Assembly: GCA_009602725.1 (NCBI GenBank)
Contig: WELB01000084.1
Location: 445,706-480,033, forward strand
Length of the DNA: 34,328 nt
DNA from: Spirogloea muscicola
Taxonomy: Eukaryota; Streptophyta; Zygnematophyceae; Spirogloeales; Spirogloeaceae
Direction: 5' to 3'
In this document: positions 14,310-34,328 of the stretch, piece by piece
Layout: every line of letters begins with the position of its first letter
Position numbering within the stretch: the first letter of the stretch is position 1
Notes under the pieces: generated by a model
What the model saw: the letters and a program-made list of their open reading frames with translations, nothing else
What the model was told of the DNA's origin: nothing
Databases searched by the model: none
Made by a program: the position numbers and the translations under genes

Positions 14310-14530
14310 GAAGATGCTCGAAGGCCTCAGAAACGCGTCAAAGCACACAGCGACTCAAGTGGCCATCGATGCTCAGTATCCCGTCTTGAGCAGCCGCAGG
14401 TCCGAGAAAGTAGTCTCCGTGTTTTCCTGTCTAAAGCCAGAGGCTGCAGCCAAAGCGCGACCAGCACGCAGACGAAGCGCGTTTGCCATGACCGTTGCAG
14501 CGGCACGGACAGGCGCATACTGTAGCGGGC
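14310..14530 (-). repeat. Dispersed repeat copy, minus strand (SDLRLL type)
   Basis: Minus-strand 14405-14373 reads FSDLRLLKTGY followed by TGA, like the ends of the copies near 32.95, 33.51 and 33.73 kb. The flank beyond the stop (CCACTTGAGTCGCTG) matches the copy at 25.9-26.07 kb. Upstream on the same strand, near 14515-14455, is a weaker copy of the MRLSVPLQRS segment seen at 15.6 and 33.4 kb. Confidence 0.6.
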
Positions 14531-14660
14531 ACGCCCCGCCGGTAAGAGTCAGGACAAACCGTTACATAACCGTAAATGTAAAGCGTCAGTCCTCCAGCCG
14601 ACAGCCACCTATGCATAGGTGGGCCTGCGGGCTTAATCCATGCCCCGTTGTGGCATGGAT

Positions 14661-14865
14661 CTTTCCCTGCAGCGAGCTACTCAGACCTGATGTAGCTCAC
14701 TCGTGGGTACTGAGCTTCCCTCTGCATCGTCTCTGTGTTCTGCAGTGTTTTGTAGTGTAGTCTTTTTTCCGGCTCCTCTTTCTCTGGCTTTGGACATTGT
14801 CCATTATTTTTTTGGGCTGGCTTTGCCAGCCCCTCTTCTCTATGGGCGCGCACTTCTTCTTCTGT
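14661..14865 (+). repeat. Dispersed repeat copy, plus strand, with hairpin and CTT tail
   Basis: Bases 14661-14850 are about 90% identical by eye to 33496-33684 in the same orientation. The copy starts with the element's C-terminal coding-like end, continues through about 100 bases of T-rich 3' sequence to a perfect 8-bp hairpin at 14814-14832 (GGGCTGGC, TTT, GCCAGCCC), and ends in a short CTT run. Confidence 0.75.
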
Positions 14866-14963
14866 TGTGGGCATAGAGCTTTTGGGCTAGCGGGGTGATT
14901 CCCGTCACAATACATAACACGAGCCTGCCGCTTCAAAATCTCTAATTTTTTTTTTCTTTTTTG

Positions 14964-15110
14964 AGAGAAGGGCTCGCCCATTGAGGATAGGGGCTGGAAA
15001 AAGAAGAAGTGGCTCTCCCAATGGGGGCAAGGGCTGTGAGACGCCAGCCCGAAAAGAATTGACAAGGTTCGAAGGGGCCAAACTACGAGCTAAGCAGCGA
15101 CTGTGGGGCC
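14964..15110 (-). repeat. Dispersed repeat, two minus-strand 3' ends
   Basis: 15005-15110 is the reverse complement of about 33010-33147 (CCCAATGGGGGCAAGG, then a CAGCCC hairpin half, then GGTTCGAAGGGGCC). 14964-15001 is a second, shorter 3' end that matches the reverse complement of about 33852-33893 (GGATAGGGGCTGGAAAAAG). Confidence 0.7.
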
Positions 15111-15299
15111 TGAAGAGGCTATGGCAGAAAGAGAGAAAGGCGCGCGGGGCGCATGAAATGAAAAGGGAGGCCAATTCAAGCCAATACACATTTCAAGCAG
15201 AGGCGAGTGCAAACTAAACAAGGCTACATAATATAGAGACCTAAACTAACGTGCCTAAGGTGACATTAGTACCCACGGGAGAGCACAAACAAAATGGAC

Positions 15300-15700
15300 A
15301 AGCTAACTTGGGGAGCTGGAGCGCCGCCACAAAAGCCGGAGGCCCGACTTAGAGCCAAGGCTTGCGAGCGCAGCAAACAAAGCGAGAGCCGCATTCTACA
15401 GTATGCAACTAAGGCCTGTGGAATGCTGGAGTGGCCCAAGCTGCCCCCCCGACATCTACGACGCGCATCAACCAGCCGGGCCAGATGCTGGATCAGAGAG
15501 GACCATTTCAAGCCGTAGCCGCCTGACGAAAGCCGGAGGCCGCAGCGAGAGCACGGCCAGCACGCAGATGCAAGGCGTGGGCCATGGACCGCTGGAGGGA
15601 GACGGACAAGCGCATACGATACACCTGAGCCCACGAGCCAGCGGCGTTGAAGTCAGCCCAGAAAAGCCAGCCAGCCCAGAAAAGAATGTACAAAGGACGA
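15300..15700 (-). repeat. Repeat copy with conserved coding-like segment
   Basis: Minus-strand frame 15693-15508 contains FNAAGSWAQVYRMRLSVSLQ and continues to RAGRALAAASGFRQ. The plus-strand copy at 33351-33548 has the same segment with mostly conservative substitutions. The rest of the stretch is diverged repeat sequence. No reverse transcriptase, transposase or integrase motif is visible. Confidence 0.6.
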
Positions 15701-16108
15701 GAAGGGAAAATCGGCCTGCTCCCCTTGGGACCGTCGGAACACCGCGCTGGAGCGAACGAAATTGAAAGAGCCGGGAGGCGCCGGAAACGGGCGCCGAGCC
15801 AGACCAGGGTGTCGACGGCGGGTAGGTGCCGACGGCGGCAGTATCGGTGTGGCTTCGCGCCCGGTCCCCACTAACACTCGGCTCTCGTTCGCTCATCTCA
15901 GTTCTGATCGCCGACACGGGGGTACTAATTTAAGGGCGCCCTGTCTGCCTAAGCCCGTGGCTCCGCCAAAGTGGTCACGTTCACCCGGCTGGCTTTTACA
16001 ACTGCTCCCTTCAAACCAGCAGCCAGAATGCAGCCTTCCTAACCAGCAGGCGGCACCCCCCGTCCCCCGCCCCACCGTCCCCCGGCGGCGCTCCCCGCGG
16101 CGGCGGCG

Positions 16109-16609
16109 ANGCTGTCGCGGCGCCGGCCGTGGGCGGAGCTGGTGGACCGCTCGGCGCTGGCGCGCCCCGACTCGCTGGGCGAGGCCGCGTCGCGCCTCCG
16201 CCGCAACGTCGCGTACTTCCGCGTCAACTACGCCGTCATCGTCGCCGCCACCGTCGCCCTGGCGCTCCTGTGGCGCCCCATCACGCTGCTGTTCCTCGGC
16301 GGCACCGCCGCGCTGTGGATGTACATCCTGGCGGTGCGCACAGAGCCGCTGGTCATCGCCGGGCGCACGCTGAGCGAGCGCGAGAAGCTCCTGGCGCTCG
16401 CCGCCGTCACGCTGCTCGCCTTCCTCCTCGGCGGCGTCCTCAACGTCCTCATCACCGGCGTCACGGTCGGCGGAGCTGCCTGCGCCCTGCACGCCGCCTG
16501 CCGCATCCCCGACGACCTCTTCCTCGACGACGCCGACGCCGCCGGCGGCTTCCTCGCCGCCTTCCTCGGCGGCGGCTCCACGCCCGCCGGCCTCGTGCCC
16601 CACGTCTAG
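16109..16609 (+). CDS. PRA1 family protein (prenylated Rab acceptor)
   Basis: Small integral membrane protein of ER, Golgi and endosomes that binds prenylated Rab GTPases and helps sort them to membranes. Single exon, about 166 residues. The plant PRA1 pattern is clear: RRPWAELVDRSALARPDSLG, then RRNVAYFRVNYAVIVAA, then two hydrophobic hairpins (VAATVALALLWRPITLLFL and LLALAAVTLLAFLLGGVLNV) separated by a short polar loop, with a Pro/Asp-rich acidic C-terminus. The start is uncertain. The codon at 16109-16111 is A-N-G, which would be ATG if N is T and would give MLSRRRPWAEL. Otherwise the frame is open from 16043 with no ATG. The length suits the family, which usually has 180-220 residues. 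Confidence 0.9.
   Translation, partial: XLSRRRPWAELVDRSALARPDSLGEAASRLRRNVAYFRVNYAVIVAATVALALLWRPITLLFLGGTAALWMYILAVRTEPLVIAGRTLSEREKLLALAAVTLLAFLLGGVLNVLITGVTVGGAACALHAACRIPDDLFLDDADAAGGFLAAFLGGGSTPAGLVPHV
16110..16110. other. Single undetermined base at the PRA1 start
   Basis: The N is the middle base of the only candidate start codon in frame near the PRA1 N-terminus, inside a CGG-rich run. Confidence 0.9.
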
Positions 16610-17460
16610 CCTTGCTCTCCCGCAGCCCATCCAGCCCCATTGTCACGATCTGCTTCTGGACACTAGCTTCTGCTTCTGGCTGCCACTCGTTCTTCTGGCG
16701 CCTCCTGCTGATCCTGGCCGCTCTGCCGACTTCCGAGACCTGCACGGGGCTGCCCTCACGCACCCGCTTGTGGCGTACTCGATTCTGGTCCGATCAGCTG
16801 TACTATGTAGAGGCGCCGACTGCAGTCCACAGATTGCAGCGCCCATCGTCCACTGCTCTCATACTAGAGGCGGGCCACCCCTGAAGCTCGCCAATGTGCA
16901 CTTTGGGCACAGAGGCTGCCTTCGACCTGAAAAGTCTTTACATTCCCTTGGCAACAAGTTTGGTGGGTGTGATGGAATTGATCACGTTGCGGTGGAGCGC
17001 CATTGGCCTCAATCAATGAATGACGACTAAATGGTGAGCCATTTGAGGGCCCGCGACTGAAGACACAGTCTGGCAGCCTGAGCAGTCAATGCTTACTCAA
17101 GAGGGCGCCACCACATGTCGACATCCATAAGATCGATCTCAATCATTACCAAGCCTAAGCCAGAGAGACAGTAGAGGCTAATGCAGCAAGCTTACAGCCT
17201 GGCAACAGTACTGGCGGACAGTGGCACAGTTGCAGGCCCGGAGAAGCTCCTCCCCAGTCGCACCTGTGCCTACCTCCGGCAGCGCTGTTCATAGCCGCCG
17301 GCAGCTGTGGAGGGGCTCAGTACATCTGCAGCCTACCCTCCTGCACCTGCCGGGTTGAGGGTGCAGATTGTGCTGATGTACACACAAGCTTGAGCCGAGC
17401 GCCGTGTCATCCCAAGTGATGGTTGCAAGGAGCGCACGTAGGTAGCCGCCAGGGCTTGGC
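16610..17460. other. Convergent spacer between PRA1 and the U-box gene
   Basis: Holds the two 3' untranslated regions. Open frames are short and unlike any family I know; no RNA gene or repeat family member seen. Confidence 0.5.
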
Positions 17461-20400
17461 TTAGCATCCCTCGTCAACTGCCGCCGCTGCTGCCTCCCCC
17501 GGGACATCTGCCCTAGCACTCTCATTTGTGGCGTCCTCTGCCAGCTGCTGCTCTGCTACTCCAGAGTTCTGCTGCTGCAGCTGCTCCAAGTGTTGCAAGA
17601 GCTGCGCCGCCTTGCGCTTCGCACGCGGCGTCCCAGCCTGCAGCAGTGATGAGAGCGGAGGGACAACGCCCAGCTCCAGCGCCGACTGCGAGTGCGCCAC
17701 CCCGTTGAGGCAGAGCGCCAGCAGAACTGCAGCAGCATTCTCCTTGTTCCGTGGCGTCCCAACTCTGCAAAGCGAAATTTTATCAATTGAGTTTTATGCA
17801 ATATGTCTCCAAAGTTACGCCAGGAGCAAGAGATAACAAGAAGGTAACAGCTTTACACTCTATGCAAGTATAAGGTTAGGCTGCCACAGCTTAGGCAAGA
17901 GATTGACAACCTAGCATCAAGGCGCCAATAGCATAATTGAAGGTCATGCATGGGTTGGCGCTTATACATGCTAAGCAGCCACGTACGCATGGCATGGGCT
18001 GCAAGGAGGAGCAGAAGTCAAATTCGCTTGCTACCTGATCAAGTCAACCAATGCAGGCACGGCTGAGGCCTGGCCAATGGCAGCCCGGCCTTCACTGGCG
18101 GTAGTAAGGATGGCAAGAATTGCTAGGGCCTCATCTGTCATTCCGGCGGTTCGGTCGATCAGCAGGTCCATCAAAGGGGGCACAACGCCAGCCCTTACGG
18201 CAAGCGACTTGTTTCCCTGCAGTAAGGGCACACAATAAATGTAAGGCCCCTTGCTTGTCGTGGCAAGCCCAATATAGACAATCCTCTGAGACTTAACAGT
18301 GCAGAGCTTCAACTATCACGATTTGCCTAGAGTCTGACTATAAAGACGTGATCAATGAAGTGCTCATAAGGAAACACTCAATGGATACGGAGCTTGACGG
18401 CTGCAGGTCATCAGATGGACTTGCTGTACGCAGTGTGTGCCAGGATTTGCTGTTGACAGGTCACAAGCATGTTGAGCTTGCGCCTAAAAAGGTGCTCTCC
18501 CATCGAGACAAGCAGCTCATTCTCCTCATTCAACATCATCCGCAAAGATCCACCAAATTGAATTCAGAATTCTTGCACTAGATGGCAGGCTCTGTACCCC
18601 ATAGATGGACAGGTTGAAGAGCGCCGTGGCTGCGTCCTTCTTCCCGCGCGGGGTGCCTTCTTCCAGCAGCTCCACCAGCGCTGGAATAGCTCCTGAGTTG
18701 CCAATGCTTACTTTGTTGTCATCAACAACAGAGAGGCTGAAGAGCGTCGCTGCTGCATTCTCTCGGGCCTCCATGCTGCCATTCCTCAGCACAGTGACAA
18801 TGGGATCGATAGCGCCGCACTGCACAATCGACGCCTGAAGGCAAGCCAAGGGTCTGATGTCAATGACACCCAACCAAGCAATTTGCGGGGTTGCATCAGT
18901 CAAGACGGAGACCGTCGAGAGCAGGTGACACTCAACCTGGGCAGGCCCAAGGTGCAATTTATGCAAAGCAAATGACAGTCCTCTGAAAGTCACTAACAAT
19001 CCACTAGCAGCAGGTGCCTTGATTTCAATTGCTAATCTGTAGTACCGCTGACCAACCTTGTTGTCTTCATTGATGGAAAGATTTAGAAGGGCAGTCACGG
19101 CATGTTCCTGAGTCTTCTGATCTGGCGAAGTCAAGAGCCCAACGAGCTTGGGGATGGCTCCCGAGCGAGCGATGCAGACGCGGTTCTCCATGCTCTTCTT
19201 GGCCAGCAGGCGGAGCTCGCCGGCTGCTGCTCTTGTCACATCTTACAGACACAATGGAGAGCTGTGTTAAGCCTTGTTACACTTATTGACAGCAGTAATT
19301 AAGCAACCACACAGAAGAGATATCAAGTGACATTCAAGTGACATTGGTTGCACTAACAGCCGATTGATATTCAGGTCATTAGAAGAGTCAACTAAACAGA
19401 TGCTGATGTGAACGATGATGAGGGATGAACGAGCAAAGTGTTGACCCAGTCTTCCAGTTGGACAATCTTCATTCTAGAGTATTAAAGCTCAAATGTGAGG
19501 GAGGACATCAGAAACTTTACTTGCTAGAGTGTAGTACATCACAGAGCAAGCTATGAAGTGCAGGCGACGTGCAATACCTTGTGGCCCGGCTGTGAGTTTC
19601 TCCAGAAGAGTCTTGACAAGAACCTGGTCTGGACCCACTTCCACACCTATGTCCGACGCTGTGCGCCCCATTTTCTGATTGCAGATATCCAGAACAAGCT
19701 AGCGTCAATTTGAGCACATGAAAATGGTCCCCAAAAGTGGTCGCCCTCTTGTCGCAAGTGTCTGTGACTACAAACCCAAAAAGCTGCTGGTGTACCAATT
19801 ACAGTGAAGGAGGGTTACCTTGAGCGCAGGCTTTGAGCCAGGCTTTTTGGGGACCTCCACCCCATTTTCGTCACACCATTGAGCAATGAGGCTGCGGAGA
19901 ACATAGTTGGGGATGAGCACTAGGTGAGATAGCTTCTGTTGCGTCTTTGGACAAGTTCGCTGCCCAGAATCGAGCCACTTCTGGATGCAGGCCCTTTCAT
20001 ATGTCTGCAGCACAAGCCAACAAAGTTCCAGCCGTTAACTCAAATGACGAGATATTTCAAGGTGACAAAGCTGTGATTCAGATGTATCAGTTGTTGCTTG
20101 GAACTGCCAAGACCTATACATTCATGGTACGGTTGAAAATATGCCGCAGACAGTGGCTGCTCCAGGGTAAAGAGTAAAATTGGCAGATGCAACCATGGAT
20201 CCAGGGCCAGATCACAGAGTAAGGGATGTGACAAAGCTATTGTGCACTATCTGCAAAACTTTGACACACAGCACACCCACGCACTTGGTAGCACTGCACA
20301 ACCGTACCTGTCCTGTCGCTACGATCACAGGGTCATGCATCAGCTCTAGCGAGACGGGGCACTTGAAATCCTCTGGCGGCTGCGGAGCGGCGTCAATCCT

Positions 20401-21787
20401 GCTCGATGAGCCCGTGCCATCGTCCCCTGTGTCGCCACCAATGTAGGTCTTCCATTTGCGTAGCAAGGCCAGAGTGACCGACATCTCGTTCTCCGTGATC
20501 GCGGGGTCGAGCTGCCTGACCAGCCTTCGGTCCCGCAGCAAGGCGCGCTGCTTCTGGAGTGCCCTGATGTCCCCCGCTACGGTGTCGACAGCCATGAGGT
20601 CCAGCCGCTCCGCGACTGACTGCATGTCAGACAACGCCAGGCAGCCCTGCCGCTCCTTGGCGAGGAGGTTCTTGATGTCGGTGTAAAGCTGCTCCTCCTG
20701 CGAGTCTGTCGTGCCCTTGGATCGCCTCAGTTGCATGTGGACCAGCTCCACCTGCAGAACAACCGCGGCCCTGTCAACGTCTTATGATGTATGCTGTCCA
20801 GCGACCAGACAGCTGCTGCTGAGCTTGGCTTGCAACGGCGGCTTGAGAGAGCGGCTCCGACATGGTACCTGCTCCTTCGTGTCTTCGGACAAGCCTATCA
20901 ACTCAAGCGGCAACTTGTCCAAGGCAGCGATGAGGTCGCTGGTCACCTCCTGGAACATGGACATGATAAACGGCTGGTTCATCACCTGCACCGAGTCCAC
21001 AACTCCACCAAGCGTCAGCACTCCGAGCACTTCCAGAGGCTTGCTTTAAGACCGAACAGCACAACCCCTGTGATGCATCGCGATCCGATGAGGGCACCCA
21101 GCAAAGTGGGGAGAAGGAGAGCCTGAGAATGGCAGCTCTCTAGAATGAAATGACATCTTAGTTGGCAAATCAATCAGCCATATGATGCAGCCGGTAAGAG
21201 GGCAAAGACGCTGACGACAGCATGCTAGGTCGCAGCCGGAAGCGAGGACGGTTAAAAAACCAATCAAGCGGCGCAGCATCAGTGCCAAGCCCGCAGACCA
21301 GGAAGACCATTACTATGGCGCCGCTGCCAAGACCGCAGGAAGGTAGACTCAAAGGCAGGCGCACAGGTGTGGCTTTGTCAAGCACAGCACATGCGTTCAC
21401 CTCTCAAGAGACCTTCCAGTGCAAGTGCCAGGTGGTGTGGCCTGACAATCGGCCGCTACCGCAACGAACAAGAGAAGGTGGCGCGGCGGGCCGCCTCACC
21501 ATGTAGAGCTTGGAGCCGTCGCGGCATTGCTCGAGGAGCGCGGCGGTGGTCTGCAGCGTGACGTGGAGGTCCTGGAAGGCCTTGAGCACGGTGGGCGCGA
21601 GCGGGAGGTCGCCTTCCCGGACCTCCTCGAAGACCTGCTCCAGGACCTGGATGCGGCGCACCAGCTTGGCGGCGCGCCGGCGGTAGCTCCGCGCCGAGTC
21701 GGCGAGCGCCGCCACCGCCTGCACCGCCTGCAGCAGCGCCACCACCAGCGCCTTGGGCGTCGTCGTCGTCCTCATCTTGGACACCAT
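17461..21787 (-). CDS. U-box E3 ubiquitin ligase with UND and ARM repeats (PUB12/13/14-like)
   Basis: Predicted E3 ligase that recruits a ubiquitin-loaded E2 through its U-box and substrate through ARM repeats. Minus-strand exons: 21787-21500, 20985-20869, 20751-20308, 20004-19819, 19674-19578, 19241-19057, 18834-18598, 18216-18035, 17764-17461; all GT-AG and in phase, 679 residues (PUB12-14 have 610-660). Residues 1-260 are the helical U-box N-terminal domain. The U-box, about 261-335, runs [21 protein letters not shown] across the exon 3-4 junction into [19 protein letters not shown] and [19 protein letters not shown] repeats from about 379 include [48 protein letters not shown] and [17 protein letters not shown]. 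The tail is Gln/Ala/Glu-rich. ATG 21787 is the first in-frame start after an upstream N at 21869; a second Met follows four codons later. Confidence 0.94.
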
Positions 21788-22540
21788 GGCCCTTGCCGGT
21801 CGCCGCTCCCGCCGCGCGCGGCGCTCACATCGCGCGCCGCCGAGCCGCCGCCGCCGCCGCCGTTGCCGNGCCGCGGGCGCTGGCGATGGCGATGGCGCGG
21901 GGCGGGCGGGCGGACGGGAAGCGACGCGGGGGGCAATGGGCGGCCGGCTGAGGAGAAGATCCTGGCTGCTGATACTAGAAGAGCCGGCCAAGTGCACCCA
22001 AACGTTGTTTCATGACTTATTTAGCGGAGCCGAAGGCCAGGCGGACAGGGCAGCACTCCTGATGCCCCCGCGACGGGGAGAAGAAGGCGGCGCCGCCCCA
22101 TCTCGGGAAGCGGCGGGGAGCGCGGCTGAACGACCGCCAAGCGGGCCGCAGCGAAGCTGCCATCCAAGCGATCCACTTTCTTCCATCACCCATGCGATAC
22201 GCCGTGGGCCCCCCCACTTTTCGGGAGGGCGCCCGCGCTAACCGGGTTGGGGTTGGGCTTGACCCGGTTAGTCGACCCATCGCCACCAGCCCAACCTCGC
22301 CCCCCGCGCTTTTGCGGGGCCGGGAAGTTTGTCGTGACGCGGCTGGCTTCAGGAGTAGGCAGCGGGGGCCCCGGCTGCGCCGACGGCACCACACGCGCAG
22401 GGGGCGGTCTGTTTGTCGTCAAGCGCGAGCACCCGGGCTGGCTGGTGTCGGCAACGGTCCCGGCTCTCGCGCGCCGGCGATCGTGCGCTCGGGAGCACGC
22501 GTGATCGTCTGCGGAGGAGTCGCAAAGCGTCCGCCGCCGG
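21788..22540. other. GC-rich 5' flank of the U-box gene
   Basis: Upstream region and probable 5' untranslated region of the minus-strand U-box gene. It contains a 10-bp inverted repeat (22238-22247 CTAACCGGGT with 22262-22271) with a 14-base loop. Open frames here are low-complexity Pro/Arg/Gly and I do not call them. Confidence 0.5.
21869..21869. other. Single undetermined base upstream of the U-box gene start
   Basis: Lies 82 bases upstream of the chosen ATG in CGC-rich sequence. It would matter only if translation starts further upstream. Confidence 0.9.
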
Positions 22541-22627
22541 CGGGTGCCCGTCAACCCCGCTAGGCCGCCGTGCCCTGCCAGCCCCGACGGTGTCCCCTTT
22601 CTCGTCCAACGTGCCGCAAATCGGCCC

Positions 22628-23029
22628 ATGATGCGGCCGCCCGTCGCATACTGCCCCCGCTGGGGAGCTGCTTGTGAGAAAGGCTCTCTCCTTCTGGAAA
22701 TGCCTTCCCCTTCTGGAAGAGCCTTCTTCTCGTCGGCGAGACCCACGTCTCCGTTTCTCTTCCCGACCCCGGCCACGACCTGCCCGAGCCCGCCGCTCTC
22801 AGCGAACCCCCCCAGCTCTGCTGTTCCTGCCCCGCCCGCCGGCCATGGTCCCCTTTGGGTCCCCCAGCGTCCCCTAATGGCGTCCGCCCCTGCCTTTGGC
22901 GCCGGTGCCGCCCTCCCTGTGGGCGGCCAGTGCCCCTCGCCAGTCAGCTGTGGCCTTCAGTACGAGGTGGCGGCTCCACTTCCCCGCACGCAGCCACGAT
23001 GCACGCGCAATGGGCGGGGGCGCCAATGA
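22628..23029 (+). CDS. Doubtful proline-rich open frame
   Basis: 133 codons from ATG to TAG, rich in Pro, Ala and Ser (FPTPATTCPSPPLSANPPSS), with no recognisable domain and no partner exon downstream. It could be the first exon of an unrecognised gene facing away from the U-box gene, or GC-driven chance. Confidence 0.15.
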   Translation: MMRPPVAYCPRWGAACEKGSLLLEMPSPSGRAFFSSARPTSPFLFPTPATTCPSPPLSANPPSSAVPAPPAGHGPLWVPQRPLMASAPAFGAGAALPVGGQCPSPVSCGLQYEVAAPLPRTQPRCTRNGRGRQ

Positions 23030-24566: not shown

Positions 24567-24914
24567 TCTTCCAGAGGGGGGCGACGGCTGTGAAAAGCCA
24601 GCCCATAAATGATGGACAAATGGACTCCCTACGGCAGAATGCTGAGGCGATCAAATGCTCTGCCAATGAGGATGCTCTTTGCTGTGCGGCCGATCAGCTC
24701 AGCAGAAATGTGGAGACGTGGACCTTGTCATATTGGCCGCTTACAGCCATCGCTTTGCAATGAAAAAGCTTATGGTCTGTTTGTTCGTGTGGAAGTGGAG
24801 CGGTCTCTGCGTTCCTCTATTTTCGGGCTGGCCAATCACAGCCATCGCTCTCTAGTGGAAGAGTTTTCCTTCCTCAGTTTACTGTGGGCTGGCTCTTCAC
24901 AGCCCTTGGCCCCC
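24567..24914. repeat. Three hairpin repeat copies
   Basis: Copies at 24567-24605 (minus orientation), 24824-24865 and 24885-24914 (plus orientation). Each keeps GGGCTGG, a variable 5-6 base loop, then CAGCC[C] and a C-rich or TCGC flank. Confidence 0.6.
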
Positions 24915-25595
24915 CGTGTCGCCGCACCACATGGTAGAGACCTGCATTCGCATGCAAAAGGACGAGTTCACTGCACTGCATCTGACTTTCATACGTTTCC
25001 TTTGTGATCAGATCAGGCTCGACTTGCCATCATTCTAGGCAGCAGAATGTTGGACCTGTCTATTGAGCAGGAATTGTCAGTAATCTTCAATTATCACTGT
25101 CAAACACCTGAAGGATCTTGATTTCCACTCCTGACGTAATCCGTGGATTGTCAATGAGCTGCCTCATATTCCACGTATGCAGCCACCTCACCATCCATGT
25201 TAAGGTTCAGTATCAGCAATCAGTTTGTCCCTTTGGGGTATGTGTGGGGTTTCTTCAGCGTCCGGACCTCCTGGTGCCTACGCCCATGCCTTCTTGGCAT
25301 GGCGCGCAATGCTACGACGACACCCGCCTGTGCAGCGGCGCGGCGGCGGTGCTGATGACCCTAGGTCATATACGTTTCAAGGAAGAGGCTGGACGTTGTC
25401 CAATGCTCATTTCCGGCCCTCCAAACCTTCATGCTCAACCTTGGCCACTTTTAGCTCAGGGCTTCACTTTCTGTACACTCGTTGTGCAGCTTTTGCTTGA
25501 ACAGTGTGTTGGCCTGATTTGGTCTCCCTTTCAATTTATGCGCGCCGCGTGCTACCCACCCTCTTCTTGCATGCTTCTTCTCCAGATGGTGAAAG

Positions 25596-26067
25596 CTTCT
25601 CAGAGGGCGGCGATGGCTGTGAAAGGCCAGCCCGAAACGATGATATGCAGTCTGGATACTTCTAAGGGGGCGAGGGCTGCGAAGGGCCAGCCCACATTAT
25701 GACAAGGCTCAGAAGTTATAACGGATAGCACGCAGGAAAGGAAGTCATCACCAAGGATGGGCCGCTCTGTGTTCGCTAGTAAGCAAGTGACTGAACACGC
25801 AGGCGCGCAGCTCCGGTCTTTCAGACTCTGTCCATTTGTTTGGAACGTAAGCTCATCCAGAAAGAAGAAATGGCTTTTCCGGGAGAGGCCAGCCCAAAAA
25901 GAGTAGGCCTTCTCCAAAAGGGGCGGGGCTTTGAAAAGCGAGCCAAGAAGTGGCTCTCCGAGAAGGAATGAAGTTCGAAGGGGCCAGAAAAGCGTTAGAA
26001 AGCAAATCGCGACCCAAGTGGCCAATGGTGCCCATTATCCTCTGTTGAGCAGCCGCAGGTCAGAATG
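25596..26067 (-). repeat. Cluster of minus-strand repeat copies
   Basis: Hairpin copies at 25596-25634, 25658-25693 and 25861-25899, and a diverged one at 25907-25965. Behind the last, minus-strand 26067-26035 reads HSDLRLLNRG and a TAA, followed by CCACTTGGGTCGCG and GGCCCCTTCGAAC, as in the copies at 14.3 and 33.0 kb. Confidence 0.65.
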
Positions 26068-26257
26068 ACCAGTCTCACAGCCATTGCCTCACAGCCATTG
26101 CCATCACATTGGAAAAAGCTTTTCTTTTCATGAGGGAGCCCCCACGGGCTCCCGGCCTACAACGCGCTCGTCCACGTGCGCTGCCCCAGCCGACGTGGCT
26201 GTCCGACTCAGCGATTTTTGCGCCGACGTGGCAGTCCGACCAGGGACCCTCTCCGAC

Positions 26258-26611
26258 GGCCGGGTTACACCGGGTTGGCCAAACACCGTTTTGACCGCCG
26301 GGTCAAGGGGGTGTCGCTGCCACGGAGGCCGAGGCCGCCTGCACGTGCGGATGCGTATTTGACATATCTGTGTATTTGGAGGAGGTTGGTGCCAGCTGTC
26401 CCTTCTCGGGCGGGGTCGCGGTGGGGGAGGGAGGTCGGAATCCAGACCACCTCGGGAGGTGGTCTGGAGTCCGGCCGCCAGCGTGGCAAACGCGCGCGTT
26501 TCTCCCTTCAACGCGCCCAAAAGGCGTCCTAGTCAGCCTCCGATGTGGCGCCTTCGTGGCGTGCGACCACGACCGGGAGCGCGAGGCCGACCGCCCCGGT
26601 GTAACCCGGCC
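26258..26611. mobile_element. Possible foldback/MITE-like element with 17-bp inverted ends
   Basis: GGCCGGGTTACACCGGG at 26258-26274 recurs as a perfect reverse complement at 26595-26611, bounding about 354 bases. Near the middle is a perfect 12-bp-arm palindrome (26441-26468). No clear target duplication was seen and there is no transposase, so it would be non-autonomous. It may instead be an unrelated pair of protein-binding sites. Confidence 0.35.
26441..26468. repeat. Perfect palindrome, 12-bp arms with 4-base loop
   Basis: TCCAGACCACCT, loop CGGG, AGGTGGTCTGGA. Allowing two mismatches the arms extend to about 20 bp, enough to form a stable hairpin or cruciform. Confidence 0.8.
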
Positions 26612-26657
26612 CCAAGTCCTCCCCACACCTTTCTTGCAGAGCTCCGCGCGCGTTGCC

Positions 26658-26936
26658 ATGGCCGCGGCCGCCGCCGCCCCGCCGCCGCCGCCGCCACCCA
26701 GGCCTAGTCTTGGGCTCTCGCCCAATCCTGCATTCGCCAGGCTCGACCACGGCCCTGACTGCACGGCGGCGGAGGTCTTTGCCGCCTTCAGCCTGTCGAC
26801 TGTGGCGACGGCGACACCACCACGGGTGCCTCTGTGCGCGCCGCTTGGTGAAATAGTCGTGTACTCGGAAACAAGCGAAGGCCGAAGTGGCCAAGTACAA
26901 CGGCAAGCACATCTAATCCGCTGCTCCGCTTTGTGA
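26658..26936 (+). CDS. Doubtful first-exon-like frame upstream of NOA1
   Basis: Starts MAAAAAAPPPPPPPRPS and continues with a less biased AFARLDHGPDCTAAEVFAAF. It has a possible donor GTGAAA at 26847. It resembles an N-terminal, perhaps transit-peptide-coding exon and could belong to NOA1, separated from it by inserted repeats, or to a lost gene. No homology supports either. Confidence 0.25.
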   Translation: MAAAAAAPPPPPPPRPSLGLSPNPAFARLDHGPDCTAAEVFAAFSLSTVATATPPRVPLCAPLGEIVVYSETSEGRSGQVQRQAHLIRCSAL

Positions 26937-26953
26937 AGGACTCCTTTAGTTGT

Positions 26954-27025
26954 CCATTCTTTTGGGCTGGCCTCTCCCAGCCCTTGCCCCCATTGGGAGA
27001 GCCACTTCTTCTTCTTCTTCTCCCA
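26954..27025 (+). repeat. Dispersed repeat 3' end with CTT run
   Basis: TTTTGGGCTGGCCTCTCCCA continues into AGCCCTTGCCCCCATTGGGA and then a (CTT)n run. This is one of the best preserved 3' ends of the family. Confidence 0.7.
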
Positions 27026-27094
27026 GCCACCAGTTAATCTGGCCGCGCTTGCTTCTTTAGTAGAGGGCGATGGCCCACAGAAACGGATGAACGA

Positions 27095-27137
27095 ACTCGG
27101 CCTCCGGCTTTCGTCAGGGGGATAGTTTACCGGCAGC
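27095..27137 (+). repeat. Repeat fragment abutting the N
   Basis: CAGGGGGATAGTTTACCGGC is shared, with one change, with about 32921-32940, where it lies just before the SDLRLL end. Here it stops exactly at the N at 27138, and GC-rich coding-like sequence begins on the other side. Confidence 0.65.
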
Positions 27138-27138
27138 N
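27138..27138. other. Single undetermined base at a repeat/NOA1 boundary
   Basis: Repeat sequence on the left, first recognisable NOA1-side exon on the right. The abrupt change suggests a join with sequence missing, which would explain why no NOA1 start codon is visible. Confidence 0.85.
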
Positions 27139-27139
27139 C

Positions 27140-30100
27140 GGCGGGGCCGCGCAGCCACGCGCTGCAGCTCTCGCAGAGTGACCAGCTCCCGCTGCCGCGG
27201 CGCGCCGTCGACGGTGGTCCTGCCGCTGCTGCAGATGCTGCGCCGCCGCTGCGAAGGCTCCACCAGGACAGGAGCCGCGGCGAGGTCCACCTAGATAGGG
27301 CACTGCTGCTGCAGGTAGAACCTAACCCTGAACCCTTAACCCTAAACCCCAAACCTAAATGTAAGCTTAATTGCTGACCCTTCTAAAACCTAGCCCTCAC
27401 TCTGAGATCGTCACAGGGAGCGCAGTGCAGGCAGCTAACGTCTCGGACAGTGTTCTGCTTGAAACAGAGATTGTTGTTCATGTTGAGGTCCCGGTTCAAG
27501 TCGAGCACGGAGGCTGTAAAGCTGTCAAGGCTTTTGTCCATGAATCAAGGCGAGCCAGGAGGCTTGTCCACTGCTGCAGTGCTCTCCACACGCTAGTGAC
27601 TGCAGTAGTCAAGATTTCCAGATATTAGTAGCATTCTCTTTGCTCAAGGATCAAAGGTGGAGGGCAATAGTAAGCTACTAACAAGGGATACAAATAATAG
27701 TTGCAGTCTGCTCCTGCAATTCAGTATTGATTGTCCCCAGTGGCAGCGCCGAGTAATTAGCAATTTGGATGGTGCACTTCCTGTAGAAGCAGGGCCAGGA
27801 GGAGCGCATGGTGCCCAGCGTAGGGCCGACAGCGGTGAGGAGAGCGGGCGATCCGAGATCAGCGTCGAGGAGCCGAGCGCGGGCGTCGGCGGCAGCAGCA
27901 GGCCGGCTTGCGGCTGTGCCCTGCTATGGCTGTGGGGCTGGCCTGCAGTCCGCCGAGCCCAAGGCCCCCGGCTACGTCCCGACTGAGAAGTTCGAGCTTG
28001 TGAGTCGCGCTGCCTCTGTGTTGCCAGATCCTGCTAACGGTAATTGTTGGCGGCTTTGGTGGTGGGCCCAGTTACCAGCTTCCGATGTTGGACCCGAAGT
28101 CCTGAGCCCTTAGCCATGAGCTGAGAGAGCCCCAAGCCCCGACCCTAAGCCTGAAGCCCTAAACTCTAGAACCAACATTGCATACATTATGCCTAATGAT
28201 GGGTCTTGTTGGACCTATTCAATTATTGTCAGGTGTTAACCGATTGGAAGTGAGTGCTCTCAGAAGTCCAGCCTGACCAAGCCCATCCTGCCTTTGCCTG
28301 CAAGCAGAAGCAGCGGCACCACCAGCTGCAGTCAGTCCTGTGCGAGCGCTGCCTCCAGCTGGCGCAGGGGCACATGATTCCGGCGGTCGGGGGCAACGGC
28401 GGCTACGGCAGCGGCCCGGGCTTTGTGTCGGCTGACGAGCTGCGCGCACAGCTGCTGCACCTGCGCGACCACAAGGCCCTTATTGTGAAGCTGGTAAGGC
28501 CAACTTGCAAGATAGGATTTAGTTGCCAAAGTCAGCTTATAACATTATGAAATAAAGCAAGAAATTGTCCTGTAATCCCTCGTTCATCCTTGGTGACACT
28601 GTACCACTGTTAACCAATGCTTGGGGGAGTGTGTTCATGAGTGCCGGATCCAACTTGCTGTGGCTGCAGGTGGACATTGTTGACTTCAACGGGAGCTTCT
28701 TGTCAAGGGTTCGGGAACTCGTTGGGGCGAATCCCATCATCCTTGTGGTCACCAAGGTCCACAATTGCAGACTCTCTGTGCTGCAGCTGCTCAGTATCTC
28801 TACATTGGTCCTATGGACTGGTGGTTTTGTGGGGCCTAAGCTGCAGGCTCTGAGTTGAATTTATGAAAGTAAGCCAAAATTCGGAGCCTTGTATTGGTAC
28901 GTCCTAGTGCTAGGTGGTGCTGCTTGGTGTGACACTTGCTGGCATCATTCGTCATGCCCAGGTTGATCTGCTGCCCCTTGGCACTCTCCTCGCCGTCGTT
29001 GGTGACTGGGTTGTGGATGCCATCTCCCGGAAGAAGCTCAAGTTCGTGAGACTGCCTCAACACCAGCACTTCTTTCCATCACCAGTGTTCTCCTTAGCAG
29101 TTCTTTGACTTTAAAAGAAGAAGGACGTGATGATGGCAATGAGAAGTCGCCAGAGGCAGACAAGCAGGATGACATGCTCCTAAGCGTGGCAGCAACCCAT
29201 GTGCAGTGGCTCATTGAGATCTCATGGTTGAAGCTTCTTGTCCTGCCTGCAGCGTTATTGCCGTTCATCTTGTCAGCTCCAAAGCGCAGACTGGCATCTC
29301 AAGCCTTGCAGGCAACATCTACCGCGAGCGACAGGTTGACTCTACCTTGGAATGACAGATGCGGCATTGATACGAAGCCGCAAGAATTGGAACGATACAG
29401 ACTGTCATTCTGTCTTGTTTTTGTTTCTGTTTCTGTTAGTAATGAAGAGGACACAAGCTTCAACCTCTGGATGATTCTCTGATTGGCGTTTAAAACAAGC
29501 ATCAGCATTAATATGACTGTTAAACAGTGTTGCTTCGCTGCTACGCACTGTTTAGATAAGTGGGACTGATCTGGTACATGTCTCCATACAATGTCCTGCA
29601 GGGGCGGGATGTATATGTGCTGGTAATGCACATCCACGCTCAATGATTCAGTCTTGCATAAAGACCAGGAGTAGTGTTGGCCCCTGCTATTCTACTGGAC
29701 ATTGTAGCTGTCATAATCTCGAGCATCTGCATCCTTCACAGGGAGCAGCAAATGTGGGAAAGTCGGCTCTGATTTCTGCTTTACTAGGTTTGGATGCCCA
29801 TGAAGCTTTCTACGCTTTTCCAAGTTAATTTTCTTGAATTGAAGGGATCGTACTCGCGTGTTAGCCCATAGTCATCTCCTCCAGACTTAGAACGACGAAT
29901 GGCAGTACCGTGCTTACACTTGAAATACCACTAAGTACCATTTTTCTCCAGGTTCTTGATTTGTTTAATCTACTCCTCATTGAAGTGTGACTGCTTAGTA
30001 TATACGCCTCGTTTGTGATGCATGCTGCAGCGGAGATGTCGTTGAGAGACCCTTCCGTGCAGCCGGCACTCAGGCACCGGCCCATCCAGTCGGCCATGCC

Positions 30101-31748
30101 AGGCACCACTCTGGGGCCCATCCGTATACACGCGTTCCCCAATGGCGGAGGGGTAAGCTGAGCACTCCTCATGACAGAGTTGTTACAAGATCACCTTATA
30201 TCAAAGGAGACATACTCCACATGACTGCCACCAGCAGGCAACATATAAGCAGCATTTCCTCTGTGCACCGAAGATGCTTTCAGCTGGCTTTCACTAACAT
30301 GTCAGCCTCCAAACGAATGTCAACATGTAGTAATAACAGTCTATATTGGCAGCGCTGCTAGGCGTGACTGCAACGCCGCCATCATATGGCTACTCTTCTT
30401 GCAGGACCTTGTGGACACCCCTGGCGTGCACCTTCACCACAGAATGGCTGCAAAGGTCAACCCTGTTGATTTGCCTGCACTTGGTCCCCGGCACCGCCTG
30501 CGCGGCTTTGTCCCTACCCTGGCCTCGTTTCTCCAACCTCTTGACACAAGCGACGGAGACAGTCTCCATGGCAGAGCTGCGGTGGAAGGGGAAGCTGGAA
30601 GCATGTCTGCTGATCGCAACGGCCTCGGCCTCGAGGGTTGCACTCTGATGTGGGGCGGCCTGGTCCGCCTTGACATCTTGGAGGTGACTTGCCCACTACC
30701 TGACTGAGTAGAGGGCTAGCATGCTGTGCCAAGACAGAACACCTATTGTCAAGCGGTCACACATGACATGAAACTTGTGGACCCACATCTTTCTCAATTA
30801 TTTTCTTTAACAGTCTCGGCATTCGTCTTTGTAGGTCCCCACCTCGATCAAGTTCACATTCTTTGGGCCTACTGCTGTCCGTGTACATTCACTCTTGACA
30901 GCCAACGCTGACGCCTTCTACAAGGTGCCATCTCAATGCCAGAAGCTTCCTCTCTCGCTGGATCTTGATAATCCACGATACTATGATGATCCATCGAAGC
31001 TGACCTTCCTGAAACTGGGAGGCTGCCAGCTGTGGCGTTGCTTGTGTGTCCATCTACCTCGTTTGAGGTAGTTAGCAACGTCGTCACATACCCATGTGGG
31101 TCCTAGCTTGGGTTCTTACACTCAATTTGTACCACTTGTGCTCATTTGTGCTGCAGGAGGAGCTTGGAACCTCGCTGACCCCCCCCTCGGCGTCTGGAGG
31201 ATTGGCCGGCTGGGAGGGCCTGGTCAGCTCCCACTCGCTGTCAATCCCGCCCCCTCCTACGCTCAGAAGGTACCAGGCTCTTCTTGATCTTGCCTGAGAG
31301 CAATGGTTCAAGTCCAAATCTTCAACTGAGGCTAGCCCAAGATGACTGTGCCTTATAGTCTTGTAGAAATTCAATCTGCATAGGTACAATGTCAATTTAG
31401 GGGCAAGTGCTCGCTTCAATGTCGAAACATCTCAAGGCAATCTGGGATTGGCCTCTTATTTTTGTAGCTGCTTAATATTATTGCTGACCCTTGTCATATG
31501 GTATTATGGGCAGGCCGTACGGCGACATCGCAGTCTCCGGCCTGGGCTGGATACAGGTGTCAGCTCAGCCGCCGCGAGGTAGCGCGGCCGCCAGCCCTCT
31601 GGGCAATGTAAGGGTCAGCATTCAGACTGCTAGGGGCGTGGAGGTCTTTTTGCGGCCCTCGTTGCCGGTGGGTGAGGATGCCGCCAGGTGGTACGAGTTC
31701 ATTGACCTGGGGCCGAACGAGGACAACCGTCCCCCCCTGAGTTATTAG
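27140..31748 (+). CDS. NOA1: NOA1/RIF1-type circularly permuted GTPase, plastid (5' end incomplete)
   Basis: YqeH-related GTPase needed for plastid ribosome assembly (AtNOA1/RIF1 in Arabidopsis). Firm exons: 27793-27999, 28308-28493, 28670-28756, 28962-29041, 29253-29334, 29602-29622, 29742-29787, 30031-30152, 30405-30683, 30835-30924, 31157-31269, 31514-31748; all in phase, 515 residues. Two upstream exons, ending at 27314 and starting at 27431, are likely but unmatched. Order of motifs: zinc-finger halves CYGCG and CERC, GHMIPAVGGNGGYGSGPGFV, then permuted GTPase motifs G4 TKVD, G5 SSK, G1 GAANVGKS, G2 region PGTTLGPI, G3 DTPG, and a C-terminal domain (WGGLVRLDIL, ISGLGW-like VSGLGW, VEVFLRPSLPVG). 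Similarity to AtNOA1 is continuous. BPG2, the other plant YqeH relative, fits worse. No start codon is seen because of the N at 27138. Confidence 0.93.
27318..27358 (+). repeat. Degenerate telomere-like repeat in an intron
   Basis: ACCCTGAACCCTTAACCCTA continues into AACCCCAAACCTAAAT: several imperfect units of the plant-type CCCTAAA telomere repeat, within the first visible NOA1 intron. Weaker traces (CCTAAGCC, GCCCTAAAC) lie near 28100-28170 in a later intron. Confidence 0.5.
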
Positions 31749-32551
31749 CACATGCAGGGGTCCCTCCATCATTAGACTGGGACCACATTGGCGCTTATTA
31801 GCTCTTTGCTGGATCCTTCAAACTTCTGGGTCTTGTTGGGGTTCCTCTTCCCCAGCTGCAAGTTACTCCGACTTGCAGCTGCTGACTCGGGGTTACTAAG
31901 CTCCTACTCTCTGTAGTCTCTTGCATAGCTGTGTGGTCTTGGCGCCTTTCGGCCCTTAAGACCTTGTCCAATCTTTCACAGCCCCCGCCCCCTTTGGAAG
32001 GACTCACTTCTTTCGTACCTGCTGTAGTAGTCCACCGAGTGATATGTTCGTGTAGAGCAGGTTTCGGTCTATCCAATTTTCAAAAGCAAGGCTGGCTCCT
32101 CTTCCTCACAGATTAGTCGTCTTACCTCAATAACTTGGTATGGACACGAGCATGATCTAGTTTGCAGTGGTCTAGCTCGGAACAGGTTACCCCCAAAGGG
32201 CATGGCATTTGAGCACGATCCCAGTATATGAGAGATGAATGAGCACAACAACATGCAATAAGTGCTCCTGATTAGCACTACAAGCTGGGGCCCGCTACAA
32301 AGAATCCCTTTGCGGGTAGTCGGAGTCAGGCCTCTCCTTCTTCCCTTTCATTGACTTTGACCTGTCGGCCTACCCTGTTTGCATCTCGGCGCCCGCCTGG
32401 GGAGCTCCACTCGTTTGGCGGCTTGTCTCTCGTTGTTGAGGCCCTAGCATGGTAGAAAGTTGCACATAATGGAGATCATATCTTAAATATATGCATGAGC
32501 GTGCAGAAGGTAAGGATATATAACCCTGGTTCTCCAGCAAGAAGGAGATTC
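31749..32551. other. Spacer downstream of NOA1
   Basis: 3' untranslated and intergenic sequence. Possible traces of repeat flank near 31965-32015 (CCCCCGCCCCCTTTGGAAGG). No gene seen. Confidence 0.5.
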
Positions 32552-32800
32552 GTTCTTCTCAGAAGGGGGCAATGGCTGTGAAAAGGAAGGAAGGCTCTTC
32601 CAGTAGAGGGCTATGGCCGCGACAAGGACCTGCCCAAGAATCAACGGCTCTTCCAATTCAAGGCAGTGGCAGAAAGAAGCAGCAGCTGAGGGCTATGGAA
32701 AGCCAGCCGACAGAAATGGACGTTTCCACGCTTCCAGATTGACAGCAGTGGCTGTGAGAAGCCAGCCCACAAGAATGGACAAGGACTGAAAGGGCCAGAT
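32552..32800 (-). repeat. Decayed tandem-like array of repeat 3' ends
   Basis: Five or so imperfect units of 40-60 bases begin near 32553, 32597, 32649, 32683 and 32732. Each has a CTTCCA-like start, a GGCTATGGCTGTG-like core and, in the best units, CCAGCCCACAAGAATGGACA. Confidence 0.5.
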
Positions 32801-32904
32801 GGCGCAAGAAGCAGGATACTAATCGCTAAGACGTCAGAAAGGAGACTCTCAGAAAGCTCTTGGCAGCAAGTGCAGACCAGGAAGGTGGTCTCAGACGAGC
32901 GACT

Positions 32905-33180
32905 CCTCCAGTCGGCTTTCAGCAGGGGGATAGTTTTCCGGCAGCTAGTCTGTCGGATTTGAGGCTCCTCACTCGTAAGTACTGAGTGGTCCATCCTCCC
33001 CCGTTCTGACATTAGCATCTTCAGGCCCCTTCGTAGCTGCTTAGCGCTTTTTAGGCCCCTCCATCGTTTGGCCCCTTCGAACCTTTGTCAATTCTTTTTC
33101 GGGCTGGCTTTTCACACCCCTTGCCCCCATTGGGAGTGCCACTTCTCCAGTAGAGGGCGATGGCTGTGATTGGCCAGCCT
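32905..33180 (+). repeat. Long repeat copy with coding-like end and hairpin
   Basis: A frame running through DSFPAASLSDLRLLTRKY ends in TGA at 32983-32985. About 115 bases of T-rich 3' sequence follow, with CTTCGTAGCTGCTTAGCGCT and GGCCCCTTCGAACC. The hairpin block is at 33101-33146, and a second, opposite-facing hairpin lies at 33147-33180. Confidence 0.7.
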
Positions 33181-33339
33181 TAAGGAAGAAGGTTCACAGG
33201 AAGAAGGTTCACAGGTGGCTCTGGCCTGGGGGGGATGAATTCGCGGCCCTGGCGATAGATGTACACGGGGCTTTCGGCAGCCGCTGGCTGGATCTCATTC
33301 AGCGCCTTGCTCGCCAGGCCATTGACCGGCGGCCGGGTC

Positions 33340-33895
33340 TGCCAGGGGCGATGCCCGGCTTCAACGCCGCCGGGTCGCTCGCACAAGTCTTCCGCATGCG
33401 CCTGGCCGTATCGCTTCAACGCTCCCTTGCCCACGCCGTCCATACGCGCGCAGGCCGTGCTATGGCCGCCGCCTCTAGGTCTCGGCGGAGCGCCTCTTTC
33501 CCTGCAGCGAGCTACTCAGACCTGATGTTGCTCACTCGTGGGTACTGAGCTTTCCTCTGCATCGTTTCTGTGTTCTGCAGTATGTTGTAGTGTAGTCCTT
33601 TCTCCGGCTCCTCTTGCTTTGGCTTTGGACATTGTCCATTCTTTTTTGGGCTGGCTTGGCCAGCCCCTCTTTTCTATGGGCGCGCTCTTCTTTGGCCAGG
33701 GGACCCGCTTCCAGGAACGGAGTCTCTCTGACCTGAGGCTGCTTAGCAGGGGTTTGTGAGTGCTTCGTAGCTGCTTCGCTTTTTATTGTGCTTGTTGTTT
33801 TTCGTACCTCCCCTGGCCCCTTCTCGGCCTTTGTTCTTCTTTTTTGGGCTGCCTTTTTCCAGCCCCTATCCTCAATTGGCGAGCCCTTCATCATA
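33340..33895 (+). repeat. Longest repeat copy, two nested 3' ends
   Basis: Plus-strand frame 33351-33548 contains FNAAGSLAQVFRMRLAVSLQ and later FPAASYSDLMLLTRGY, then TGA. A hairpin follows at 33648-33666. A second end then appears, with SLSDLRLLSRGL and TGA at 33757-33759 and a further hairpin near 33857-33877. The 33496-33684 part matches 14661-14850. No catalytic domain is present, so the copy is 5'-truncated. Confidence 0.7.
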
Positions 33896-34209: not shown

Positions 34210-34328
34210 TATGCCGCCAGTTATACTACACTTATATCCAGCCGCCGCCACCGCCGCCGTCGCCGCCGCCGCCGCCGCCGACGCCGCCTCCGCCGCCGCA
34301 GATTGCGCCGATGGCGGCACTGGGGCCC
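34210..34328 (+). CDS. Possible start of a proline- or alanine-rich protein, cut by the window edge
   Basis: One plus-strand frame encodes [19 protein letters not shown] then QIAPMAALGP. A second, from ATG 34210, encodes an Ala-rich run (MPPVILHLYPAAATAAVAAA). The Pro-rich frame resembles exon 1 of the AT-hook gene and algal hydroxyproline-rich proteins in composition only. Frame and start cannot be decided. Confidence 0.25.

Follow-up and report, generated by a model that had tools for sequence, protein, structure and literature searches.

Repeat copies in the window

The window, a stretch of 34,328 nt from Spirogloea muscicola (contig WELB01000084.1), carries repeat copies, fragments and isolated 3' ends on both strands; the same eukaryotic genome also holds U-box and Armadillo exons (Pfam scan of two exons, with ARM_PUB below the cut-off). 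The features are as follows.

14319..14525 (-): copy with terminus SDLRLLKTGY*
14660..14858 (+): copy of family B that matches the one at 33.5 kb at 93%; SDLM is immediately followed by TAG (by eye)
14967..15129 (-): a pair of adjacent 3' ends, one resembling family D (14967-15001), the other family A (15004-15129)
15269..15658 (-): coding fragments, 15516-15658 of family A (94% DNA) adjoining a more distant piece that ends SILFVLSRGY*
24568..24620 (-): 3' end, from the 3'-end profile
24807..24871 (+): 3' end of type E (GGGCTGGCCAATCACAGCC), from the 3'-end profile
25971..26076 (-): copy with terminus SDLRLLNRG*
26939..27067 (+): family F 3' end (26949-27010) with a CTTCTTCTTCTTC tail
27098..27137 (+): family A fragment of 40 nt around the GGGGGATAG point
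31822..32014 (+): sixth copy, with the terminus SDLQLLTRGY* and a 3' part that ends in CTCACTTCTTTC
32729..32883 (-): repeat fragment, including the 3' end 32738-32783
32913..33146 (+): family A copy that retains the final 23 codons (..SDLRLLTRKY*) and the 3' UTR, with 3' end ...GGGAGTGCCACTTCT
33083..33147 (+): family A 3' tail with the GGGCTGG..CAGCCC hairpin, whose 3' arm carries C instead of G in this copy
33143..33185 (-): 3' end of another copy, beside the family A copy
33222..33697 (+): family B copy and longest coding remnant of the window, open frame 33222-33548, ending SDLMLLTRGY*
33690..33892 (+): relative of family D, to which L042 belongs, ending SDLRLLSRGL*

All five of the SDL(R/M)LL termini with a nearby stop that a preliminary description had listed were recovered by a six-frame scan, at 14405(-) SDLRLLKTGY*, 26064(-) SDLRLLNRG*, 32953(+) SDLRLLTRKY*, 33516(+) SDLMLLTRGY* and 33727(+) SDLRLLSRGL*, and a sixth lies at 31867(+) SDLQLLTRGY*. 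The six occurrences of SDL..L plus stop compare with 0.68 on average in 100 windows simulated with a Markov model. In the real window, a more permissive pattern adds 15298(-) SILFVLSRGY*, the simulated windows having been scanned with the stricter pattern only. A 3'-end profile finds 11 related 3' ends, on the plus strand at 14795-14858, 24807-24871, 26949-27010, 33083-33147, 33630-33693 and 33829-33892, and on the minus strand at 14967-15001, 15004-15065, 24568-24620, 32738-32783 and 33143-33185. The CTTCGTAGCTGCTT part previously ascribed to the 3' sequence can be made out clearly in the copies at 32.97 and 33.75 kb but not in that at 33.5 kb, and the hairpin, previously ascribed to the plus-strand copies, is present there and in minus-strand copies too. 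The copy at 33690..33892 has 77% DNA identity to L042 over 33690-33888. The family A copy at 32913..33146 adjoins the minus-strand 3' end at 33143-33185 and has CCAGT at both flanks, a match of 5 nt only, at least 5 being shared in 74 of 812 mismatched flank pairs.

A search of the 153-Mb genome with the block 32950-33147 gave 3308 first-look candidates, and the 40 that were scored yielded 42 matches; in 40 of these the block aligns almost end to end at 94-100%, so that copies exist outside the window. It is scarcely credible that the motif and the 3' blocks reflect chance or host-gene paralogy: a GC-rich window and short motifs favour random matches, but the excess of termini over simulation and the number of genomic matches both speak against this, as does the alignment of two window pieces to one ORF C-terminus. 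The SDLxLL terminus is the C-terminus of a retrotransposon protein.

Ends of the copies and the 3' hairpin

The preliminary description read the repeats as LINE-like, with coincident 3' ends and varying 5' ends, and this pattern was found in family A, the family of the 32.91-33.15 kb copy. In 30 copies, the window's own included, the 3' ends coincide at ...GCCACTTCT and the 5' ends differ (20 loci compared pairwise and 30 copies placed on longer references; the set was chosen by match to the block 32950-33147 and does not include copies shorter than the block). Twenty of the 30 start away from GGGGATAG, up to hundreds of nt upstream, and the insertion flanks differ from copy to copy. Flanking duplications of 7-9 nt are present in 7 of 29 copies, whereas only 12 of 812 mismatched flank pairs share at least 7 nt; the other 22 copies have no duplication of at least 7 nt. 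In an alignment of 42 divergent 3' ends, which omits six of 45 representative ends (the hairpin being altered in some of these), 85.3% of stem cells pair, and two of the seven stem pairs fail, in 14 and 23 of the 42 rows. No compensatory change occurs in the stem across these rows, the stem hardly varying.

Long copies and their protein

Longer copies with open genes are found elsewhere in the same genome, and the find is therefore real and largely ordinary. L021 has a 646-residue open frame that ends SDLRLLTRNY* at the block, and L042 and L043 carry an identical open frame of 1350 codons. The long frame contains a reverse transcriptase (RT; Pfam RVT_1, E 7.9e-16), and a PDB sequence search returned three sequences at E<=0.1, all R2 proteins, the best at 6.8e-07. 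The 5' starts of full-length copies cluster: L042/L043 aside, the starts of 30 of the 38 scored copies fall within 18 nt. In a self-comparison, seven long loci showed direct matches of 39-268 nt, none of them forming an LTR pair that bounds the 4.1-kb element. Among the direct matches, one of 101 nt (74%) between the sequence just upstream of the L042 start and the L042 3' UTR is read as the tail of another copy because its distance varies in other loci. The shared 3' ends, the variable 5' ends and the RT of the longer copies together support the LINE interpretation.

LINEs often have an apurinic/apyrimidinic-type endonuclease (APE), which in L1/Zepp and Dualen elements is expected upstream of the RT. 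No APE family is among the five families listed for the 1302-residue protein P0001 (Pfam-A, E<=1), nor is Myb listed for it at the same threshold, and the zinc-finger calls in the long protein are sub-threshold in Pfam or were made by eye. The expectation of longer copies with both RT and endonuclease thus holds for the RT, and the endonuclease takes the form of residues resembling a restriction-like endonuclease (RLE) downstream of the RT, not of an APE. In L042, these residues are D-X14-D and, 30 residues on, KELKY, a D-to-D spacing in keeping with the rule for RLEs. KX2KY is also found in L044 and L045, the family A loci L021, L041 and L046 have KX2KH, and GXW appears as GXXW. The RLE features with which the L042 residues (D...D, KX2KY) were compared are those given in passages of PMC5678591. 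Between the RT and the endonuclease region lies a C-C-H-C set spaced C-X-C-X12-H-X3-C, whereas the same passages give CX2-3CX7-8HX4C, together with Myb, for the RLE group (PMC5678591). The RLE assignment is based on motifs, because Pfam found nothing in the 646-residue C-terminal protein and a profile of the C-terminal region against PDB found no solved structure at E<=5. Judged from these residues, the elements probably carry a candidate RLE.

The inverted-repeat junction of L042 and L043

A unit of 5451 bp is common to L042 and L043 (99.98%), and the 3' end of this unit recurs in inverted orientation, over 947 bp at 99.9%, as its left end. Terminal inverted repeats or LTRs had been named beforehand as features at odds with the LINE reading; inverted repeats occur in these two near-identical loci only, and no LTR pair was seen at the ends of the long copies. 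The 947-bp arm would suit terminal-inverted-repeat elements with outward-facing 3' ends on both sides that move as a DNA unit, but this is very improbable, given that, of 40 matches scored out of 343 candidates, a query across the junction aligned over its full length in 2 and over the coding half alone in 38, that the 30 copies with clustered starts begin near the ORF start without the L042 upstream sequence, that the units of L021, L041, L044, L045 and L046 showed no inverted arms at their ends, and that the encoded domain is an RT. As a general structure, terminal inverted repeats were rejected on the strength of the junction search.

Proposed element and its cycle

Common 3' ends, variable 5' ends, duplications, an RT domain, long open frames and RLE-like residues are all present at the level of the sequence. 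Very probably the repeats are dead copies, in most cases truncated at the 5' end, and belong to several sister families of LINEs (non-LTR retrotransposons) that work like the RLE LINEs of the R2 group. The complete element would be about 4.1 kb long with one ORF, predicted to encode, in order, zinc-finger-like motifs, RT, a cysteine/histidine knuckle, the putative RLE and a C-terminal tail ending SDLxLLxRxY. We infer that the stem forms, that the protein binds the 3' tail of its own RNA, a conserved end of about 65 nt with the GGGCTGG/CCAGCCC stem-loop and CACTTCT, through this hairpin, and that the RLE nicks the target DNA, the nick priming reverse transcription from the RNA 3' end. Early stops of synthesis would give a common 3' end and variable 5' ends, some copies having duplications of 7-9 nt.

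The recurrent 5' breakpoint

In 10 of the 30 family A copies the 5' end lies no further than about 10 nt from GGGGATAG, with unrelated flanking sequence, and in eight of these it lies at the G run itself. Among local matches that reach the 3' end, 11 of 77 start at reference 498-500, and nine of these belong to the copies just mentioned. Family D shows that this short start is no general feature, with 2 of 46 matches starting within 10 nt of the homologous place. This favoured breakpoint is odd, less ordinary than the rest and worth a second look. The clustered starts, and a T-to-A change in some short copies that was not seen by eye in long ones, could indicate a non-autonomous, SINE-like family whose 5' end is fixed in its own right and whose 3' tail was borrowed from a LINE. 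Such a family is unlikely, however, as two-thirds of the copies begin elsewhere, short and long copies are mixed on the 30-copy tree (10 changes against a shuffled mean of 8.6, the tree being poorly resolved and the bootstrap unsettled), and the window has no tRNA gene and no Rfam match at gathering score. In addition, the T-to-A variant marks no large lineage, because it has five exact genomic matches, and one with coding sequence upstream.

An HDV-like ribozyme at the GGGGATAG start was also considered and is speculation: P1 and P2 can be drawn by eye in family A, the helix order is lost in family D, and Rfam at E<=5 gave no ribozyme, its six sub-gathering matches all being to unrelated families.

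Insertion sites

No Rfam family, those of rRNA and U2 included, reached gathering score in 20 loci or in the window, many loci covering about 1.5 kb on each side only. General self-targeting is not supported: a repeat spans the reconstructed empty site of 13 of 29 copies (several of these matches being to the locus of the copy itself), compared with 529 of 1500 sites drawn at random (p 0.19). A wider 3'-UTR profile is found at 5 of 29 insertion sites against 287 of 3000 (p 0.14), with 11 of 321 random window sites, and a looser count places a 3'-end match near the site in 12 of 29 copies against 171 of 1000. Four of the 29 insertions (L006, L007, L015 and L033) lie at the same spot in an antisense 3' hairpin, as judged by eye, which is likewise less ordinary, with p about 1e-6 before allowing for the post hoc choice of site (195 hairpins in 280 kb).

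It is conceivable, if doubtful, that one family makes, alongside its full RNA, a discrete short RNA starting at GGGGAUAG in the last ORF codons, which the same protein copies as a unit of about 220 bp, and that this protein preferentially targets the 3' hairpin of copies already in place, the family feeding on its own tails and not on host genes. The GGGGAUAG end would then come from RNA processing, perhaps self-cleavage, or from an internal start.

Relation to known LINEs and significance

R2-group RLE LINEs have a single ORF with N-terminal zinc fingers, a central RT and a C-terminal zinc knuckle and RLE, according to section 9 of PMC4640811 and parts of PMC5678591. The architecture proposed here resembles that of this group (R2, R4, NeSL, HERO, CRE; Utopia), R2 proteins being the only PDB relatives at E<=0.1, but the flanks differ with no single target gene seen, the knuckle spacing differs and no Myb is listed. 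Unlike 28S-specific R2 and U2-specific Utopia, the 20 loci have no rRNA or U2 match at gathering score. Dualen/RandI elements, reported in Chlamydomonas and relatives, have an RLE-like endonuclease (portions of PMC8226300 and PMC3636483), and Dualen also encodes an APE (same portion of PMC3636483). The putative RLE-like endonuclease is the feature shared with the present elements, whereas no APE is listed for the 1302-residue protein here (E<=1). Zepp is an L1, with APE as in L1s, and its copies nest in one another. Clustering of Zepp elements is described in part of PMC8226300. As in the green-algal L1 LINEs Zepp and ZeppL, copies here sit in and beside one another; in contrast to Zepp, RLE-like residues follow the RT and copies are spread over many contigs.

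Titles and abstract openings of the literature searched contained no description of these families, which does not prove absence. The present families add abundant, apparently recent LINEs with RLE-like residues, two loci being identical over the whole ORF. The fixed 3' end and the favoured 5' breakpoint provide material on what stops target-primed reverse transcription, and the families also offer material on how the host is spared by an element that has no fixed target gene. Self-targeting, if true, would be an RLE counterpart to Zepp clustering.

Genomic Copies and Their Ends

A genome search (153.1 Mb, 471 contigs) with window block 32950–33147, the 3′ part of a family A copy, gave 42 matches from 40 scored of 3308 first-look candidates. 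In pairwise comparison of 20 loci, similarity stops on the 3′ side at median positions 1694–1700 (medians from the listing), at ...GCCACTTCT, and its 5′ limit spreads over hundreds of nucleotides; some single pairs match beyond the common 3′ end, where the flanks are themselves repeats. The copy set was then enlarged to 30 (the 20 loci and ten further copies, that of the window among them). On longer references the 3′ end fell at 1694–1705 in 28 of these, and the other two (L002 and L009), ending at 1671 and 1672 on their reference, were like the rest in the 20-locus comparison. The coinciding 3′ ends and varying 5′ limits across these 20 loci and 30 copies bear out the preliminary description, which proposed LINE-like retroposons with 5′ truncation.

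Duplications of 7 nt or more flank 7 of 29 copies (L003, L006, L007, L010, L015, L033, and L039); a control with mismatched flank pairs gave 12 of 812. At a threshold of 5 nt the counts are 9 of 29 and 74 of 812. One long copy (L004) of the 30 was excluded, and the right boundary of L007 and of L018 was set beyond a short tandem 3′-tail piece before counting. These pieces, of ∼45 nt, directly follow the complete 3′ end (L007:1690–1750; L018, reversed, 1690–1745). Four of the 29 copies (L006, L007, L015, and L033) share, as judged by eye, one insertion point within an antisense hairpin (binomial p ∼1e-6 against 195 hairpins in 280 kb, noticed post hoc), and general nesting of copies in repeats was not above the repeat-rich background.

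Encoded Protein and Full-Length Element

The long locus L021 has a 646-residue open frame with the terminus SDLRLLTRNY* at the block start, and this copy is broken because the RT motifs RQGDPL and YADDT, found upstream by eye, lie in a different frame. A tblastn search with its protein, in which 68 of 21352 candidates were scored, yielded 76 matches. Of these, 24, at 63–65% identity over residues ∼175–184 to 646, have no internal stop, with open frames ranging from 474 to 1558 codons, and form a sister family. Two of them, L042 and L043, share an identical 1350-codon open frame, whose 1302-residue product (P0001) matches Pfam RVT_1 (E 7.9e-16) and, in a PDB sequence search, three sequences at E<=0.1, all R2 proteins (best 6.8e-07). 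Sub-threshold C2H2 matches in Pfam lie at residues 267–287, and a further zinc-finger-like motif was seen by eye at position 69.

Motifs of P0001 downstream of RT
1075, cysteine/histidine knuckle
1104, HDRLRD
1145–1160, D1145-X14-D1160
1190, KELKY
1212, GALGARW

RLEs follow a D-to-D spacing rule. KX2KY is present in L042, L044, and L045 and is replaced by KX2KH in L021, L041, and L046. Compared with the RLE features given in PMC5678591, knuckle and GXW spacing differ in P0001. No Myb, APE or RNase H family was found in P0001 in Pfam at E<=1, the 646-residue protein had zero Pfam matches at E<=1, and a C-terminal region profile had zero matches in the PDB at E<=5. Since these profile searches of the C-terminal part were empty, the endonuclease was called on residues and position, as a candidate of RLE type. 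The SDL(R/M)LL terminus is the tail of a LINE ORF that probably works like RLE-type ones, which is why it matched no family familiar to the preliminary description.

With the 5′ part of L042 as query (40 scored of 2768 candidates), 30 of 38 5′ starts, L042 and L043 excepted, fell within query 308–325 (L042:1207–1224) and 8 elsewhere; the complete element therefore extends from about there to L042:5321, ∼4.1 kb. L042 and L043 have 5451 bp in common at 99.98%, with 947-bp inverted arms whose junction was full length in none of the other matches among the 40 scored; the unit is a composite that was copied once or duplicated. In L042 (with L047) and L043 (with L048) alike, this nearly identical 5.45-kb unit has 3′ ends facing outward at its borders, and the flanks of L043 are also partly inverted copies of one another.

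Copies Within the Window

The five SDL(R/M)LL...stop termini described previously are present, at 14405(-), 26064(-), 32953(+), 33516(+), and 33727(+), and a six-frame scan added a sixth; the chance level is a mean of 0.68 matches (100 windows, first-order Markov simulation). A looser pattern, run without a simulated control, gave an additional site at 15298(-). A profile built from seven 3′ ends located 11 ends in the window; across the non-redundant DNA analysed, 280,047 bases, it located 192.

LINE features of the window
31867, plus, sixth SDL..L terminus
32.91–33.15 kb, plus, family A copy, in a row with B and D-like copies
33.22–33.70 kb, plus, family B copy, in the same row
14.66–14.86 kb, plus, family B copy
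33.69–33.89 kb, plus, D-like copy, in the same row
33222–33548, plus, ORF C-terminus match, by alignment with LINE ORFs
15269–15634, minus, ORF C-terminus match, by alignment with LINE ORFs
33177–33545, 32914–32982, 33694–33753, and 15523–15657, C-terminus matches by tblastn, placed on the LINE ORF
15269–15529, weak C-terminus match by tblastn, placed on the LINE ORF

The family A copy is flanked on both sides by CCAGT, weak at only 5 nt, and adjoins a minus-strand 3′ end (33143–33185).

Conserved 3′ Tail

Forty-two divergent ends were aligned (39 of 45 representatives, the six left out including some with an altered hairpin, and three window ends), and have in common TTGTCCATT..TTTT-GGGCTGG-loop-CAGCCC...GGGAGAGCC. 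In the stem, a candidate pairing whose constancy the alignment shows, 85.3% of cells pair; the inner pairs are nearly invariant, the two pairs at the stem ends are broken in 14 and 23 of the 42 rows, and none of the aligned sequences shows a compensatory change. Structured 3′ ends serve other LINEs as RT recognition sites, and by analogy this tail is a putative one.

Recurrent 5′ Start

Ten of the 30 family A copies start within ∼10 nt of GGGGATAG, eight at the G run itself and two (L005 and L039) a few nt inward. Among local matches reaching the 3′ end, 11 of 77 start at 498–500 of the reference; nine are copies already counted and two are new, one being older, as it is only 84% identical. 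Genome-wide there are 212 exact matches to the 32-mer at this start and 145 to a 33-mer with nine upstream coding bases, the 145 not being a strict subset of the 212. A recurrent stop or a processed template fits such a start better than a separate lineage of short copies, because short and long forms are intermixed on the copy tree, itself poorly resolved.

A T directly precedes the G run in seven of the eight short copies (L002, L003, L007, L010, L015, L019, and L031) and a C in L020. The base stands at about position 1475 of each locus, with L002 and L015 read in reverse and L031 numbered within its own cut-out. In L007 and L010 the duplication does not include the T, as would follow from untemplated addition.

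Literature and Other Window Features

The kind of element, probably an RLE-type LINE, is already known; no description of these particular families turned up in the literature searched, the comparison papers on LINEs being PMC4640811, PMC5678591, PMC8226300, and PMC3636483.

18526–20751, minus, U-box exon and Armadillo exon (Pfam; ARM_PUB below cut-off)

These exons perhaps encode a plant-type U-box protein, and the host is probably of the green lineage. Degenerate CCCTAAA-like telomeric repeats lie at 27320–27360, in the interior of the contig, and CCG/CGG-rich stretches (6060–6150, 10450–10550, and 34235–34310) are possibly near 5′ ends of genes.
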